From the NCBI GenBank assembly GCA_947595415.1, contig CANQER010000003.1, positions 1 to 19,139 of the forward strand: a stretch of 19,139 nucleotides of DNA. Direction: 5' to 3'. Both the position numbers and the translations under genes were made by a program. Under the pieces are notes generated by a model. The model saw nothing but the letters and a program-made list of their open reading frames with translations, did not search any database and was not told the origin of the DNA. Shown here one piece after another: positions 303 through 19,074 of the stretch (position 1 is the stretch's first letter; every line of letters starts with the position of its first letter). This stretch comes from an uncultured Bacilli bacterium (GTDB taxonomy: Bacteria; Bacillota_I; Bacilli_A; RF39; UBA660).

Positions 303-345
303 GAAAAAGTTAAGTATTATTTAATACAATTAAATAGGTGGTTTT

Positions 346-574: not shown

Positions 575-603
575 TTGACAAAAAACTACATATATGATAA
601 ATT
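575..603 (+). promoter_or_regulatory. Promoter of the GT4 glycosyltransferase gene
   Basis: A TTGACA -35 box (575-580) begins two bases after the ylmC stop. A 17-base spacer leads to TAAATT (598-603), preceded by an extended -10 TG at 595-596. Six bases later GGTGAT (610-615) begins, three bases before the ATG at 619. The expected start of transcription is therefore at the first G of the ribosome site, giving a leader of about 9 nt. Confidence 0.65.
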
Positions 604-618
604 TATATTGGTGATAAG

Positions 619-3157: not shown

Positions 3158-3168
3158 ACTATCACCTA

Positions 3169-3193
3169 ATCAAATATATTCATTTAATTTGAT
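3169..3193. repeat. Short inverted repeat over the deacetylase promoter
   Basis: The arms ATCAAAT (3169-3175) and ATTTGAT (3187-3193) are perfect complements separated by 11 bases. They straddle the predicted -10 box of the minus-strand deacetylase gene, which would suit a repressor site. In such AT-rich DNA a 7-base inverted repeat can occur by chance. Confidence 0.3.
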
Positions 3194-3223: not shown

Positions 3224-3244
3224 CATATAATTTTATAGGGTGAT
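3224..3244 (+). promoter_or_regulatory. Putative -10 region and ribosome site of yabG
   Basis: CATATAAT (3224-3231) lies 7 bases before GGTGAT (3239-3244), which lies 3 bases before the ATG. No sigma-A-like -35 is visible at 17 bases. The CATA start of the box is reminiscent of sigma-E/sigma-K promoters, and yabG is a mother-cell gene in Bacillus, but spacing and -35 do not allow a firm assignment. Confidence 0.35.
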
Positions 3245-3247
3245 ATT

Positions 3248-5229: not shown

Positions 5230-5235
5230 TATAAT
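5207..5235 (+). promoter_or_regulatory. Internal promoter of divIC
   Basis: TTGCAC (5207-5212), a 17-base spacer and TATAAT (5230-5235) with extended -10 TG at 5227-5228 lie across the yabQ stop codon. Six bases later comes GGTGAT and, three bases on, the ATG. This frees the division gene from the sporulation-only yabPQ promoter. Confidence 0.75.
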
Positions 5236-5250
5236 TGTCTAGGTGATTAT

Positions 5251-6213: not shown

Positions 6214-6229
6214 ACTATCACCTATTTAC

Positions 6230-6258
6230 ATTATAACAAATAATTATAGTTAAAGCAA
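6230..6258 (-). promoter_or_regulatory. Promoter of the LemA-family gene
   Basis: On the minus strand, TTGCTT (6258-6253), a 17-base spacer and TATAAT (6235-6230) with an extended -10 TG lie 7 bases before GGTGAT. The predicted leader is 9-10 nt. Confidence 0.75.
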
Positions 6259-6298: not shown

Positions 6299-6327
6299 TT
6301 GTCAAAATAAGGTATCTATGTTATACT
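6299..6327 (+). promoter_or_regulatory. Promoter of the first membrane-anchored paralog
   Basis: TTGTCA (6299-6304), a 17-base spacer and TATACT (6322-6327) with extended -10 TG (6319-6320) precede the AGAAAGGAG ribosome site. The same promoter is repeated before the next paralog. Confidence 0.8.
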
Positions 6328-6344
6328 GAGAGCAGAAAGGAGTT
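6317..6344 (+). repeat. 28-base direct repeat, copy 1 (promoter -10 plus ribosome site)
   Basis: These 28 bases are identical to 7166-7193. They span the extended -10 box, the expected transcription start and the AGAAAGGAG ribosome site. The copies lie 849 bases apart and mark the tandem duplication of the two paralogous genes. Confidence 0.85.
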
Positions 6345-6348
6345 AGGT

Positions 6349-7089
6349 ATGAAAAATAATGGTGGTCTTATAGCTGCTATAGTTATCTTAAGTTTAATTG
6401 TCTTAGCTTTGGCAGGAGTTATTATTGTTAAAGGTACTAAAGGTACAACAGATGATACAACAAGTAAACAACCAGGTAGTGGGACTGAAGAAGTAAAACT
6501 TACTGCTAGTGAAGTTGATAGTTTAATGAGTAAATATTTAATTAAACAATGTAGTAATTATTATTTAACTGATTATACTAATGAAGATGTTAAAAATGGG
6601 ATTGCAGCTAATAATATTAATGCTACTGGTAGTGTGAAATGTAGTGAAAAATATGAAGGATCTTTTAACGAAGGAAGTAGTGATTATAATATTTCAGATT
6701 CAACAGTTAATGATATAGCTAAGTGGTGTGAAAGTGATAAAGCTAATACTTATACTTATGATGCTATTTTAGCTAGTAAAAAAGAATTGTTTGGACTTAA
6801 TTCTAGTTTAGCTAATAATGATTTTAAAGCTAATAATTGGTTATATTATGATTATGATAGTTCAAATAATGCCTTTGTTGCATTAGATACTTTTGGTAAG
6901 GGATGTGCTGCTCCAGAACGTACAACTACTATTGATTCATTTGATCAAAGTGGTGATGTTTTAGAAGTAACATTTACTTACAATGAAGTGTATGGTAATC
7001 CTAGTGAAGATAAAACAGAAAAATATAAATATACTTTTAAAAAAGCTAATGAAAAATTTTATTTGTCTTCAATTAGTAAGGTTGCATAA
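6349..7089 (+). CDS. Membrane-anchored extracellular protein of unknown function, paralog 1
   Basis: I do not recognise a named family. The 246-residue protein has one N-terminal span (about residues 6-28) and no lipobox. A Thr/Ser/Gly-rich linker (about 30-48) leads to an extracellular domain that starts LTASEVDSLMSKYL and ends EKFYLSSISKVA. It carries four cysteines, in KQCSNYY, VKCSEK, KWCESD and GKGCAAP, which could form two disulfides. The next gene encodes a related domain. The start was put at 6349 because AGAAAGGAG lies 7 bases upstream; an earlier in-frame ATG at 6265 lies upstream of the promoter. The gene has its own promoter and terminator. A surface or sensing role is possible but unsupported. 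Confidence 0.75.
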   Translation: MKNNGGLIAAIVILSLIVLALAGVIIVKGTKGTTDDTTSKQPGSGTEEVKLTASEVDSLMSKYLIKQCSNYYLTDYTNEDVKNGIAANNINATGSVKCSEKYEGSFNEGSSDYNISDSTVNDIAKWCESDKANTYTYDAILASKKELFGLNSSLANNDFKANNWLYYDYDSSNNAFVALDTFGKGCAAPERTTTIDSFDQSGDVLEVTFTYNEVYGNPSEDKTEKYKYTFKKANEKFYLSSISKVA

Positions 7090-7147: not shown

Positions 7148-7176
7148 TTGATAATAAGTAACATTTATGTTATACT
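7148..7176 (+). promoter_or_regulatory. Promoter of the second membrane-anchored paralog
   Basis: TTGATA (7148-7153), a 17-base spacer and TATACT (7171-7176) with extended -10 TG (7168-7169). Apart from the -35 and spacer bases it repeats the promoter at 6299-6327. Confidence 0.8.
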
Positions 7177-7193
7177 GAGAGCAGAAAGGAGTT
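7166..7193 (+). repeat. 28-base direct repeat, copy 2 (promoter -10 plus ribosome site)
   Basis: These 28 bases are identical to 6317-6344. The gene bodies have diverged a good deal more than this control segment, suggesting selection or gene conversion on it. Confidence 0.85.
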
Positions 7194-8698: not shown

Positions 8699-8716
8699 GA
8701 TAATAAACTAGGTGAT
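8699..8716 (+). promoter_or_regulatory. Putative -10 box and ribosome site of the SpoIIB-like gene
   Basis: GATAAT (8699-8704) lies six bases before GGTGAT (8711-8716), itself three bases before the ATG. A convincing -35 at 16-18 bases is not visible. Confidence 0.4.
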
Positions 8717-8719
8717 AAT

Positions 8720-9187
8720 ATGAAGATAAAATACTTTTTTCCTATCTTAGTAGCTCTTATAATGGGATTTATTTTAGGTTACTATATCTATGAAAAATAT
8801 GACAACAAAAATAAAATTCAAACAGTTTTTAATAATTCTAATGAACTATACTTTATTCAACTTGGGGTCTATAAAAACAAAGATAACATGGAAAATAAGA
8901 TGAAATCTTTATCTTATTATATATATTCTAAAGAAGATGATTTGTATCATGCTTTTGGTTGTATAACTCATGATAAAAACAATTTAACTAAAATAAAAGG
9001 TTATTATAATAGTATAAAATATAATATATATGAGAAGAAATATCAAGTAGACAACGATGGATTTTTAACTGTATTAGATCAATATGATGAACTATTAAAA
9101 CAGACAAATGATGATAAAACTATTGAAGCTATTTGTAGTCAAGTTTTAAGTAAATATGAGGAGATGGTAGTAGATAATGAAAATTAA
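8720..9187 (+). CDS. SPOR-domain-like membrane protein in the SpoIIB position
   Basis: The 155-residue protein has a short N-terminal membrane span (about residues 5-23) and an extracellular region with a SPOR-like pattern: ELYFIQLGVYKNKDNMENKMKSL, then DLYHAFGCITHDKNNLTKIKGYY. SPOR domains bind denuded glycan strands at septa. In Bacillus the gene in this position, upstream of maf-radC, is spoIIB, whose product has a SPOR-type domain and aids septal wall thinning at engulfment. This protein is therefore a probable SpoIIB counterpart, much shorter than the Bacillus one (about 330 residues). The ATG at 8720 was chosen over one 36 bases upstream because GGTGAT lies 3 bases before it. It overlaps radC by 11 bases. 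Confidence 0.65.
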   Translation: MKIKYFFPILVALIMGFILGYYIYEKYDNKNKIQTVFNNSNELYFIQLGVYKNKDNMENKMKSLSYYIYSKEDDLYHAFGCITHDKNNLTKIKGYYNSIKYNIYEKKYQVDNDGFLTVLDQYDELLKQTNDDKTIEAICSQVLSKYEEMVVDNEN

Positions 9188-9877: not shown

Positions 9878-9896
9878 TATAATAAAAAAAGGTGAT
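9878..9896 (+). promoter_or_regulatory. Putative -10 box and ribosome site of mreC
   Basis: TATAAT (9878-9883) is followed by 7 bases and GGTGAT (9891-9896), then ATG at 9901. No good -35 is visible, so it may be weak, or use of the upstream radC transcript may dominate. Confidence 0.45.
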
Positions 9897-9900
9897 AGGC

Positions 9901-10752
9901 ATGTATCATAAAAAAAAGAAAAAGGGTAAATATATAGTTTTAGTTGTTTTATTAGTTGTAGTTATTGTTTTAACTGGAATTGCCATTACAATTAGACCTA
10001 CAAGAGATTTAACTGCTCCAGAAAAAGTAATAAAAGATACAGTTTTATTTATCAACAAAATAGTTGTAAGTCCTTTTAGATTTATAGGGGATATGATAAA
10101 TGAATCAAGTGAAAAAAAGGATTTATATAAAAAATATGTTGAACTTAAAAAGAAAGTAGATAATATGAGTCTTACTATAGCTCGTAAAGAAGAACTAGAA
10201 AAAATGGTTAACGATTTAGAAGAAACTTTAAAACTTAACCAAAATTTATCTGATAATATGTATTTAAATGCTTCAGTTATTAATCGTGATATTGGATATT
10301 GGTACAATACCATTACTATCGATAAAGGTCTTAAAAATGGGGTAAGTAAAGATATGGCAGTTATTGTACCTAATGGACTTATTGGTAAGATCAGTAGTGT
10401 TAGTAACTATAATAGTACAGTAAAACTTCTAACCACAGAAGATGTCAACAATAAAATATCAGTTAAAATAAATAATGATGGCAAATATGTGTATGGACTT
10501 TTAACTGGATATGATAAAAAAAATGAAGCTTTTATAGTTGAAGGAATATCAGAAAATACAAGTATTAAAAAAGATAGTCTTGTCACAACAACTGGTCTTG
10601 GTGATATTTTCCCAAGTGGAATAATCATAGGTAAAGTAAATAAAATAACCACAGACAATTTTGATCTAGCTAAAATTGTAGAAGTTAAATCAGATGTAGA
10701 TTTTAACGATATAACAGTAGTAACTGTTTTAAAAAGGAAAGATTCAAAATGA
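9901..10752 (+). CDS. mreC: Rod-shape determining protein MreC
   Basis: MreC is a membrane-anchored scaffold of the elongasome that contacts penicillin-binding proteins outside the membrane. The 283-residue protein has a very basic cytoplasmic start, a span at about residues 12-33, a coiled coil at about 67-112 and the two-barrel MreC domain with the typical NASVINRDIGYWYNTITIDKG, VPNGLIGKISSVS and TTGLGDIFPSGIIIGKV. The start at 9901 is chosen because GGTGAT lies just upstream; a GTG at 9892 falls inside that ribosome site. It overlaps mreD by 4 bases (ATGA). No mreB lies beside it, unlike Bacillus. Confidence 0.95.
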   Translation: MYHKKKKKGKYIVLVVLLVVVIVLTGIAITIRPTRDLTAPEKVIKDTVLFINKIVVSPFRFIGDMINESSEKKDLYKKYVELKKKVDNMSLTIARKEELEKMVNDLEETLKLNQNLSDNMYLNASVINRDIGYWYNTITIDKGLKNGVSKDMAVIVPNGLIGKISSVSNYNSTVKLLTTEDVNNKISVKINNDGKYVYGLLTGYDKKNEAFIVEGISENTSIKKDSLVTTTGLGDIFPSGIIIGKVNKITTDNFDLAKIVEVKSDVDFNDITVVTVLKRKDSK

Positions 10753-11263: not shown

Positions 11264-11274
11264 ATACATATAAT
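11246..11274 (+). promoter_or_regulatory. Putative promoter of spoIVFA-spoIVFB
   Basis: TTAATA (11246-11251), 17 bases and TATAAT (11269-11274) precede GGTGAT by 6 bases. The -10 sits inside CATATAAT, the same octamer found before yabG. Bacillus spoIVF is transcribed by sigma-E; the -35 seen here is weak for either sigma factor. Confidence 0.4.
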
Positions 11275-11289
11275 TAATAAGGTGATACT

Positions 11290-12580: not shown

Positions 12581-12658
12581 GTGTGTAGACCTCGTTCTAC
12601 AACCGCACTAAAGAGGTTTTAAAACTTATGTACCTCAAAGGCGAGTCTTAGATAATAA
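12581..12658 (+). ncRNA. Ribosomal protein L21 leader RNA
   Basis: This non-coding leader lies between the promoter and rplU and has the look of the Firmicute L21 leader, which is thought to let L21 control its own operon. A hairpin TGTAGA (12584-12589) / TCTACA (12596-12601) is closed by GTG (12581-12583) / CAC (12606-12608). A second helix pairs GAGGT (12613-12617) with ACCTC (12632-12636). The conserved ending CTCAAAGGCGAGTCTTAG follows. CGAG (12642-12645) could pair with CTCG (12591-12594) in the first loop as a pseudoknot. The family call is from recognition; a covariance search would confirm it. Confidence 0.8.
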
Positions 12659-13624: not shown

Positions 13625-13656
13625 TTAAGTAGAGAATGGGAAGGAGGAATCGAGGT

Positions 13657-13695
13657 ATGAAATTTGCTTGGGCTTGGTTAAAAAGATTTTTATAA
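13657..13695 (+). CDS. 12-residue Trp-containing peptide (unknown; leader peptide or small functional peptide)
   Basis: A very good ribosome site (GGAAGGAGG, 13639-13647) and ATG open a frame encoding MKFAWAWLKRFL, then TAA. It is basic, hydrophobic and has two tryptophans. It has its own promoter upstream and, after the stop, a hairpin and a strong terminator, so the transcript is about 150 nt. This looks like either an attenuator with a leader peptide or a free-standing mRNA for a micro-peptide or a small RNA. Because the next gene has its own promoter beyond the terminator, a stand-alone unit is at least as likely. No family is recognised. Confidence 0.5.
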   Translation: MKFAWAWLKRFL

Positions 13696-15472: not shown

Positions 15473-15502
15473 TTGACACCAACTTAAAGTTGATGTTAAA
15501 CT
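15473..15502 (+). promoter_or_regulatory. Promoter with a long dyad filling the spacer (MerR-type operator candidate)
   Basis: TTGACA (15473-15478), an 18-base spacer and TAAACT (15497-15502) with extended -10 TG (15494-15495). Centred on A15486, bases 15473-15485 and 15487-15499 form an inverted repeat with 11 of 13 positions paired; its core is CAACTT-A-AAGTTG. MerR-family activators bind dyads of this kind lying between the -35 and -10 of stretched promoters. No MerR gene is in the window. Confidence 0.65.
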
Positions 15503-15517
15503 AAAAATGGTGATAGT

Positions 15518-17122
15518 ATGAAAAAAATATTGTTAATTTTAATTGTTTCTTTTTTATTTATGATACCAGTTAAAGCTACTTCAACACCTAGTCAAGTTAA
15601 AATAACTGATGTATCAATTAGTAGTAATAATATAACTTTAACTTATAAAAAAGTTAAAAATGTAGTTGGATATAAAATATATCGTATGGAAAATGATAAG
15701 TTTGTTCATATTAAAACTACTAATAAAACGACTTATAAAGATTCAAATTTAAAATATAATAAAACTTATCAATATAAAATTAGAGCTTATAAAAAGGTAA
15801 ATGGTAAAACTATATTTGGTAAGTATTCTAGTATCAAAAGTGGTAAAACATCTCCTAAAACACCTAGTTTTACTTTAAGTAGTTATGATTATAACAAAGT
15901 AAAAATAACTATTAATAAGGTAAGTGGAGCTATTAGTTATAAAGTTTATAGATCAAGTAAAAAAAATGGAACTTATACTTGTATTGGTTCTACTAGTGAG
16001 AGTATAATCGATACTAAGTTAAAAACTGGTAAGACTTATTACTATAAAGTAAAAGCAGTAGGTAAATCTGGTAAGGTTAAAACGTATAGTAAAATAAGTA
16101 GTTATAAAACTATAGCTCCTAAGTTAAAGACTGCTAGTTTTAAGGTTAGTTTGACTGATAAGGGAGTTAAAATAAGTATTGATAAAGTAAATGGAGCTAG
16201 TAACTATCAAATTTATAAAGCAACCAGTAAAAAAGGTAGTTATACTTATTTAAAAAATACAACTTCTAATACTTTTACTGATACTAGTGTTGGTAATAAA
16301 ACTTATTATTATAAAGTAAGAAGTTTTAAAGTAGTAGATAAAAAAAGGGTTCATAGTAGTTATTCTAGTGTTATTAGTATAAGTGTTCCTAAACTATATC
16401 AAACTGGTAAATATGTAGTTTCTAAACAAATTGAACCTGGATTATATCGAGTTTTAAACAACAGTAATATGGGAGGCTATATTTCAAGGTTAAATTCTTT
16501 AGATATTGGAATGGAATCGATAATTGCTAGTAATATGTTTATTTCAAATGGTTATGTGGAAATTAAAAGTAGTGATTATGCTGTTGAGGTAAATGGAGTT
16601 ACGATTTATAAAATAGATTATGATACTTATAAGGGTAGTATTAAAAATAGTTATTCATCTGGAAGGTATTTAGTTAATAAAGATATTTTACCTGGTATCT
16701 ATAAAGTTAGTGATATTAAGGGTTTAAATGGTTATATCGAAAGACTTAGTAAGGTAGATATGGAAAGTAGTAGTATTATTAAAAACAAGTATTTTATAGA
16801 TAATGGTTATATTGAAATTAAAAGTAGTGATTATGCTATTAATATAGAAAGTTGTACAATTGAAAAAATCGATTATGATAGTTATTTACCTAATGTATTA
16901 GATGAATATAAAGATGGAATGTATTTAATAGGTAAAGATATTTTACCTGGTACTTATGAGGTTAAAGTAGTTGATGAGAATAATTATGTAAAAGTATTAA
17001 AAGGGGTTAGTTTAGAAGATGAAGAGTTATTAAATAATTCCTATGAAAGTGATAGTACTATTACTATTAGTGATGGATTTGCTATTGATATTAAAAATAT
17101 TATACTTAAAAAAATAGATTAG
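15518..17122 (+). CDS. Secreted protein with three FN3-like domains and three C-terminal ~85-residue repeats
   Basis: The 534-residue protein has a signal peptide (cut expected after VKA, residue 20). Three fibronectin type III-like units follow at about residues 24-110, 112-198 and 203-290, each with the V-x-G-A-x-x-Y-x-I/V-Y-R/K ... T-Y-Y-Y-K-V-R/K-A pattern. The C-terminal half is three repeats starting at about 293, 378 and 463, each opening G-x-Y-x-V/I-x-K-x-I-x-P-G-x-Y-x-V. No LPXTG, membrane tail or S-layer motif is seen, so wall attachment is unclear. It is very rich in Lys, Ser, Tyr and Thr. A surface, adhesion or matrix role is likely but not proven. GGTGAT lies 3 bases before the ATG, and a dyad-containing promoter lies upstream. 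Confidence 0.8.
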   Translation: MKKILLILIVSFLFMIPVKATSTPSQVKITDVSISSNNITLTYKKVKNVVGYKIYRMENDKFVHIKTTNKTTYKDSNLKYNKTYQYKIRAYKKVNGKTIFGKYSSIKSGKTSPKTPSFTLSSYDYNKVKITINKVSGAISYKVYRSSKKNGTYTCIGSTSESIIDTKLKTGKTYYYKVKAVGKSGKVKTYSKISSYKTIAPKLKTASFKVSLTDKGVKISIDKVNGASNYQIYKATSKKGSYTYLKNTTSNTFTDTSVGNKTYYYKVRSFKVVDKKRVHSSYSSVISISVPKLYQTGKYVVSKQIEPGLYRVLNNSNMGGYISRLNSLDIGMESIIASNMFISNGYVEIKSSDYAVEVNGVTIYKIDYDTYKGSIKNSYSSGRYLVNKDILPGIYKVSDIKGLNGYIERLSKVDMESSSIIKNKYFIDNGYIEIKSSDYAINIESCTIEKIDYDSYLPNVLDEYKDGMYLIGKDILPGTYEVKVVDENNYVKVLKGVSLEDEELLNNSYESDSTITISDGFAIDIKNIILKKID

Positions 17123-18781: not shown

Positions 18782-18797
18782 ATTTAACACCAGTACA

Positions 18798-18826
18798 AAT
18801 ATAACATAAAAAAAAATATTTGACAA
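18798..18826 (-). promoter_or_regulatory. Promoter of the DUF192 gene
   Basis: On the minus strand, TTGTCA (18826-18821), a 17-base spacer and TATATT (18803-18798) with extended -10 TG. Six bases later GGTG begins, ahead of the ATG. Its -35 overlaps that of the divergent pilin promoter. Confidence 0.7.
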
Positions 18827-18876: not shown

Positions 18877-19074
18877 ATGAAGATTAATAACAAGGGTCAA
18901 GCTTTGGTTGAATATTTACTTATAATTGCTGTTATTAGTGTAATAGTAGTGGGTATAGTTAAGTTGTTAGGTGGTTATTTACAAGATGCGATGACAAAGT
19001 CTGCTTGTTCATGGACTGATAAGATTTATGTTGAGGGTAATAAACCTGGTGATGGTAAGTGTGTAGAAAAGTAA
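18877..19074 (+). CDS. Flp-type pilin (class III/type IVb prepilin)
   Basis: The 65-residue protein starts MKINNKGQALVEYLLIIAVISVIVVGIV. The prepilin peptidase should cut between Gly 7 and Gln 8, leaving the conserved Glu at +5 of the mature chain (Glu 12) ahead of a hydrophobic helix. This is the pattern of Flp/Fap pilins of Tad systems. The C-terminal tail has two cysteines (SACSW and GKCVEK), which could form a disulfide. The start at 18877 is supported by ATGGAGG six bases upstream; the frame extends further upstream but without a ribosome site. Further tad genes are expected downstream, outside the window. Confidence 0.85.
   Translation: MKINNKGQALVEYLLIIAVISVIVVGIVKLLGGYLQDAMTKSACSWTDKIYVEGNKPGDGKCVEK

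Follow-up and report, generated by a model that had tools for sequence, protein, structure and literature searches.

Promoter -10 elements at a fixed phase to the Shine-Dalgarno sequence predict leaders of 9 to 10 nucleotides in an uncultured Bacilli lineage

Promoter and Shine-Dalgarno (SD) sequence are very probably fused at a fixed phase in the genome studied here, with transcription starting at the beginning of the SD sequence and a predicted leader of 9 to 10 nt. We observed an excess of the corresponding spacing, a distinct base pattern at the expected start, conservation of the arrangement upstream of yabG, and differences in gene context among relatives; from these we infer the transcription start, the sigma factor assignment, and 30S binding. 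The window is the whole stretch of 19,139 nt that was analyzed, and it comes from a 935-kb genome (G000) that is 68% complete and has a G+C content of 0.27.

Gene starts in the window

The initial annotation had listed ten genes with a -10-like hexamer that ends 6 or 7 bases ahead of GGTG. On rereading, all ten had one, defined as having no more than two mismatches to TATAAT. An eleventh case, the gene at 346, was absent from that list. The instances are given below in window coordinates, with N for the number of intervening bases.

325 to 345, forward strand: gene at 346; -10 TACAAT 325-330, N6, GGTGGTTTT 337-345, ATG 346
575 to 618, forward strand: glycosyltransferase gene; -35 TTGACA 575-580, 17 bp, -10 TAAATT 598-603, N6, GGTGAT 610-615, AAG, ATG 619
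3158 to 3178, reverse strand: polysaccharide deacetylase gene; -10 TATATT 3178-3173, N6, GGTGAT 3166-3161, ATG 3157
3226 to 3247, forward strand: YabG gene; -10 TATAAT 3226-3231 (CA just before), N7, GGTGAT 3239-3244, ATG 3248
5230 to 5250, forward strand: DivIC gene; -10 TATAAT 5230-5235, N6, GGTGAT 5242-5247, ATG 5251
6214 to 6235, reverse strand: LemA gene; -10 TATAAT 6235-6230, N7, GGTGAT 6222-6217, ATG 6213
8699 to 8719, forward strand: "SpoIIB-like" gene; -10 GATAAT 8699-8704, N6, GGTGAT 8711-8716, ATG 8720
9878 to 9900, forward strand: MreC gene; -10 TATAAT 9878-9883, N7, GGTGAT 9891-9896, N4, ATG 9901
11269 to 11289, forward strand: M23 peptidase gene; -10 TATAAT 11269-11274, N6, GGTGAT 11281-11286, ATG 11290
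15473 to 15517, forward strand: FN3 gene; -35 TTGACA 15473-15478, 18 bp, -10 TAAACT 15497-15502, N6, GGTGAT 15509-15514, ATG 15518
18782 to 18826, reverse strand: DUF192 gene; -35 TTGTCA 18826-18821, 17 bp, -10 TATATT 18803-18798, N6, GGTGTT 18791-18786, N4, ATG 18781

Among the ten listed genes, the gap between the -10 and GGTG was 6 bases in seven and 7 bases in yabG, the LemA gene, and mreC. GGTGAT was separated from ATG by 3 bases, or by 4 in mreC and after the GGTGTT of the DUF192 gene, just as had been described. The gene at 619 has a -10 with two mismatches to TATAAT (TAAATT) and a perfect TTGACA 17 bp upstream. Most of the gene names proposed earlier agreed with Pfam, whose cutoffs were passed for glycosyltransferase, polysaccharide deacetylase, YabG, DivIC, LemA, MreC, M23 peptidase, and DUF192; the M23 peptidase match fell on the gene that had been called spoIVFA, the fn3 match of the gene at 15518 was just below the cutoff (24.4 versus 25 bits), and the gene at 8720 had no Pfam match, its label being that of the initial annotation. 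The four-base spacing in mreC places the GTG of GGTGAT (window position 9892) in frame with the ATG, so that a longest-ORF call puts the start at 9892 and not at 9901. The window also holds a short ORF at 18877 to 19074, beginning MKINNKGQALVEYLLIIAVISVIVVG, which we take to resemble a Flp or type IV pilin-like peptide.

Excess of the fixed spacing over chance

A genome-wide scan for a -10 at a fixed distance from GGTG, which had been put forward as a check, gave a clear excess over a shifted control. The pattern TATAATN5-7GGTGN5ATG occurred 54 times in G000 versus 3 times for the shifted control TATAATN12-14, and GGTGATNNNATG occurred 120 times versus 3 times for the pattern read backwards. 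When the gap was left free (TATAATN{0,30}GGTGN5ATG), 92 matches were obtained, with 34 at gap 6, 17 at gap 7, 8 at gap 8, 3 at gap 5, and 30 at the others; exact TATAAT thus stood at gaps 6 to 7 in 51 of 92 matches spread over 31 gaps.

The same preference appeared in a 324-kb sample of this genome that comprised the window and 20 further stretches. Of 56 cases in which GGTGAT preceded, by 0 to 15 bases, an ATG that opens an ORF of 80 codons or more, 37 had a spacing of 3, and AGGAGG lay at spacings of 4 to 8 from ATG in 44 of 51. Starts were also collected without regard to any motif, as the 190 of 302 ORFs in which no further in-frame ATG comes within 20 codons of the first one. In these, GGTGA at -9 (30/190) was the most frequent phased word, and the most frequent phased six-mers were GGTGAT at -9 (21 starts), AGGTGA at -10 (20 starts), and GTGATA at -8 (16 starts); TATAAT was found at -21 in 12 of the 190, which accounts for 12 of its 62 occurrences. 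Where GGTG[AGT] stood at -9, TATAAT with at most one mismatch was present at -22/-21 in 15/42 starts; in 2,000 base shuffles the count averaged 3.7 and never exceeded 10. Elsewhere a TATAAT-like word at these positions was seen in 6/76 AGGAGG-type starts and 4/72 other starts.

With a G+C content of 27%, the -10-like hexamers could be chance matches in AT-rich DNA, with the true start further upstream. We consider this highly unlikely, as exact TATAAT is concentrated at two gaps, shifted matches are scarce, the glycosyltransferase and FN3 genes have a perfect TTGACA 17 to 18 bp before the predicted -10, and the -10/GGTG arrangement is conserved in yabG orthologs (see below); the spacing scan by itself already disfavors chance. 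What chance may explain is part of the loosely defined -10 elements, which preceded 23/52 of the GGTG starts in our sample at gaps 6 to 7 and 9/52 at the control gaps 12 to 13, so that a good share of the loose matches may be accidental. For GGTG starts with more than 40 nt of upstream space the corresponding counts were 18/35 and 7/35, and 17/35 had no phased -10 even when tested loosely. Loose -10 elements also peaked at gaps 10 to 11 (20/52), which we take for a putative echo of the extended -10 (TGNTATAAT). A smaller second peak at gaps 14 to 15 among relatives (33 starts, of which 27 lacked a phased -10) could likewise be counted in favor of chance, but these starts would fit ordinary longer leaders on the same SD. 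Similar starts with the -10 at gap 14 to 15 and a steadily longer leader recur among the relative loci L071 to L150 (for example, L074, L075, L081, L084, and L114; ATGAAACCAGAATTATTAGC).

Base pattern at the predicted transcription start

Suppose that RNA polymerase takes a purine 7 bases downstream of the -10 as its start. With a gap of 6, +1 would then be the first G of GGTG and the preceding base would be free; with a gap of 7, the base before GGTG would itself have to be a purine. We combined the G000 matches with those listed for G040, a genome of the same family, and found a purine before GGTG in 33/35 matches at gap 7 versus 22/58 at gap 6 (Fisher test, P = 2e-8), where T was present in 36/58. 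Counted from the promoter, the 7th base after TATAAT was a purine in 33/35 gap-7 matches; at gap 6 the search pattern itself makes it a G. In relatives the purine was found in 31/32 starts at gap 7 versus 42/69 at gaps 5 to 6; our own sample gave 3/3 versus 6/15, which was not significant (P = 0.21). Where relatives had GGTG at -10, the -10 peak shifted to -22/-23 (8 and 7 of 56).

These frequencies have to be read against the starts without a phased -10, which in the start samples had a purine before GGTG in 163/194 cases. Relative to this baseline, gap 7 was slightly higher (34/35, P = 0.036) and gap 6 was lower (47/73, P = 8e-4). As the SD complement itself favors A before GGTG, a purine in this position at gap 7 counts for little on its own; the weight lies with the T that precedes the expected +1 in gap-6 starts. 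Together, spacing and base pattern support the earlier proposal that the message would begin at the ribosome site itself, with a leader of 9 to 10 nt.

Conservation upstream of yabG

The relatives comprised 80 loci from metagenome-assembled genomes titled uncultured Bacilli, Tenericutes, Erysipelotrichaceae, Bacillales, Bacillota, Mollicutes, or bacterium; one relative locus is from Candidatus Faecisoma merdavium, a genus placed by NCBI in Mycoplasmatota incertae sedis. In the survey of yabG at 80 loci, 75 had a usable ATG and 5 did not. GGTG was present at -9 to -11 in 70/75 starts, 69 of which also had a CATATAAT-like -10, and the gap between the two was 5 to 7 in 68 of those 69. As for exceptions, GGTG at -8 to -12 was missing in 5/75 starts, one start had no -10, and the outlying rows were two at gap 7 and one at gap 2.

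The base before GGTG was a purine in 42/42 starts at gap 6 and in 0/24 at gap 5, where it was always T; this purine is the 6th base after the CATATAAT-like -10. A single insertion or deletion alters gap and base together, and the informative point is thus that every extra base was a purine. On a tree of 66 YabG rows the gap and base traits each needed 9 changes, and the 4 independent pairs on supported branches all agreed (sign test, P = 0.125).

Sigma-E promoters have the consensus CATANNNT at -10 and a TCATATT-like -35 about 13 to 15 bp upstream. With this consensus, we found TCATATT with at most one mismatch at 13 to 14 bp in 19 matches among the 69 yabG starts with a CATATAAT-like -10. The yabG promoter is probably read by a sporulation-type sigma factor that recognizes CATATAAT.

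Gene context in relatives

Starts with and without a phased -10 differed in the relatives, which are centered on yabG and related to one another, so that P values from them overstate the differences. GGTGAT was kept in 69/101 starts with a phased -10 versus 62/151 without, a G two bases before GGTG was present in 11/101 versus 57/151, and 4/101 versus 38/151 were operonic. With the CA-TATAAT group left out, the upstream G was found in 10/66 versus 57/151 and GGTGAT in 39/66 versus 62/151. The median distance to the upstream ORF was 62 nt with and without a phased -10. A message that begins at the G of GGTG leaves the upstream AGGA outside it, and phased starts are therefore predicted to lack the upstream SD base, which holds in the relatives. 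In our own sample the differences in upstream G (4/18 phased versus 14/43 without; P = 0.54) and in GGTGAT (10/18 versus 14/43; P = 0.15) were not significant, all P values of this comparison being uncorrected, and operonic starts made up 2/18 of those with a phased -10 versus 18/43 of those without.

Shine-Dalgarno pairing and register

As the initial annotation had stated, GGTGAT is complementary to the 3' end of 16S rRNA (GGUGAU with AUCACC). Inspection of that end, which it had suggested, gave the complementary tail GGATGGATCACCTCCT in 10/117 family genomes, and no 16S gene was found in the incomplete G000 assembly. Among class relatives, of which one strand was read, an identical tail was seen in 5/20 loci. 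The tail is fully complementary to AGGAGGTGAT. GGTGAT-N3-ATG corresponds to the 3' half of AGGAGGTGAT-N3-ATG and shares the register of AGGAGG-N7-ATG, which is within the usual AGGAGG spacing of 4 to 8. The calculated pairing energy with the tail was -8.8 kcal/mol for GGUGAUAUU (the 9-nt leader), not far from the -11.0 kcal/mol for AGGAGGUUAAUAU (AGGAGG). SD-led initiation calls for complementarity to the 16S tail at a normal distance from the start codon, which the GGTGAT starts show.

It had also been proposed that two classes of initiation coexist; in such a scheme, GGTGAT genes would contact the ribosome in their own way, and AGGAGG genes would follow the classical route. The sharp spacing of GGTGAT (37/56 at 3) beside the wider spread of AGGAGG (44/51 over 4 to 8), and the different gene context of the two classes in relatives, would agree with this. 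However, GGAGG genes were equally phased: TATAATN{0,30}GGAGG peaked at gap 6 in G000 (12/61 typed of 64 matches), and the -10 of AGGAGG starts in relatives peaked in the same place, at gap 5 (12/67 starts). The common register, a canonical 16S tail where one was found, and the frequency of intermediates with an upstream G and no phased -10 (57/151 in relatives) also count against two mechanisms, and we regard them as highly improbable. Phasing is thus a more general trait of SD promoters here, with GGTGAT marking the shortest leaders, and we favor a single SD mechanism that uses a truncated or a full SD, the upstream half being dropped when the transcript would start on the SD. Genes inside operons would have the bases upstream of their starts transcribed and could for that reason use AGGAGG or GAGGTGA. 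The 7th base after the -10 was a purine in 23/23 GGAGG genes with a gap of 9 or less, and this was set aside as evidence for the start, with 15/23 fixed by the motif and the rest possibly SD bases.

In the window, the gene rplU, which had been cited as a contrast with a special leader, does have a ribosomal protein L21 leader (RF00559, 51.9 bits, window 12591 to 12658). Two neighboring genes that look paralogous by eye (starts at 6349 and 7199) have an identical 28-base promoter-leader, TATGTTATACTGAGAGCAGAAAGGAGTT, at 6317 to 6344 and 7166 to 7193; both have an AGGAG-type site and lack a phased -10. At 13642 to 13695, AGGAGG is followed by a start codon at 13657, a 12-residue peptide, MKFAWAWLKRFL, and a stop; it is possibly a tiny membrane or leader peptide.

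The mRNAs might instead be leaderless, with GGTG as part of the promoter or its GTG as a start codon at the 5' end, a reading that we consider extremely unlikely. The -10 is near the start codon, as in leaderless genes of Deinococcus according to the available part of a published study (PMC12340547), and at four-base spacing the GTG is in frame, as in mreC; at the usual spacing, however, it is out of frame, and GGTG kept its position at -9 in 43 and at -10 in 9 of the 190 starts in our sample. Of the GGTG starts in our sample that lack a phased -10, 18/43 are operonic, and such starts often carry the upstream SD base. A leaderless mRNA has its start codon at the 5' end or no more than about 5 nt from it, and no SD, whereas the predicted leader here is 9 to 10 nt long with the SD at -9.

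We propose the following mechanism for the phased starts. RNA polymerase with the housekeeping sigma factor, or probably a sporulation-type one at yabG, would start 6 to 7 bases after the -10, on the first G of GGTGAT or on the purine just before it, and the mRNA would begin with GGUGAUNNNAUG or AGGUGAUNNNAUG, giving a leader of 9 to 10 nt with the SD at its very 5' end. As the upstream AGGA would sit in untranscribed promoter DNA, these genes would be left with the 3' half of the SD complement, GGUGAU, which would pair with AUCACC of 16S rRNA in the normal register to AUG. The 30S subunit would then initiate as on any SD mRNA.

Distribution across the class

Across 247 genomes of the class, TATAATN5-7GGTGN5ATG gave 1,682 matches versus 1,014 for the shifted TATAATN12-14. 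The window's family contributed 495 close versus 172 shifted matches over 31 genomes, 26 of which had more close ones and 2 equal numbers. By the ratio close/(shifted + 1), G000 ranked first among the 247 sampled genomes. G040 had 47 close versus 5 shifted matches, and among the 58 matches listed of its 65, 24 were at gap 6 and 18 at gap 7. Close matches were in excess in 7/22 sampled families at an uncorrected P of <0.05 and were rarer than shifted ones in 6/22 (for example, 8 versus 21 in family f11). GGTGATNNNATG alone was present in 245/247 genomes; GGTGAT is thus common as an SD sequence, and what characterizes the lineage is the -10 in phase with it.

Implications and comparison with known systems

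Overall, short leaders of the kind already known seem to have a variant in this lineage, and the arrangement does not look like a separate mode of translation initiation. The chances seem to us evenly balanced for the broader claim that a large uncultured Bacilli lineage has a near-obligatory phase between promoter and SD, served by more than one sigma factor, with many first genes on leaders of 9 to 10 nt with a truncated SD and ribosomes loading at the extreme 5' end, below the proposed bacterial minimum. With the module, sequence alone suffices to predict, almost to the base, where transcripts begin in an uncultured group, and gene finders would gain a strong start signal in this lineage. 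It also offers a natural test of the shortest workable SD-containing leader and of translation control by start-site choice; if the reading is true, a choice one base up or down would be directly coupled to translation efficiency. No description of this lineage's module was found in the open-access library that we searched, which is no proof that none exists.

The comparisons that follow rest on the available parts of the cited studies. Thermotoga maritima has a "Short" 5' untranslated region class, with measured leaders of 11 to 17 nt that barely accommodate the SD; according to the authors, any shorter leader would no longer allow translation. Its promoters are of the sigma-70 type with a start 7 bp after the -10, and the available text reports no leaderless transcripts (PMC3636130). 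Our system is similarly bacterial, with a putative sigma-70-type promoter and a leader predicted to be barely longer than the SD, but the leaders here are predicted, shorter (9 to 10 nt), and tightly phased, GGTGAT replaces the upstream SD half, and a sporulation-type -10 is also used (PMC3636130). In Thermococcus onnurineus the median leader is 12 nt and the SDs are GGDGRD (PMC5316973), and in Thermococcus kodakarensis the SD is GGTGA (PMC2784483), paired with the 16S tail and described around 6 nt from the start site (PMC5316973, PMC2784483). Short leaders, predicted in our case, and GGTGA as an SD that pairs with the 16S tail are common to both systems; however, the archaeal promoter is of the TATA/BRE type and has no -10 fixed to the SD of the kind seen here (PMC5316973, PMC2784483). 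In Deinococcus-Thermus the -10 adjoins the ORF and the mRNAs are leaderless or nearly so (PMC12340547). That lineage, like ours, holds a promoter element at a fixed short distance from the ORF, but in the portion available no SD lies between its -10 and the start codon, whereas here an SD stands in that place, and we predict that transcription begins with it (PMC12340547).
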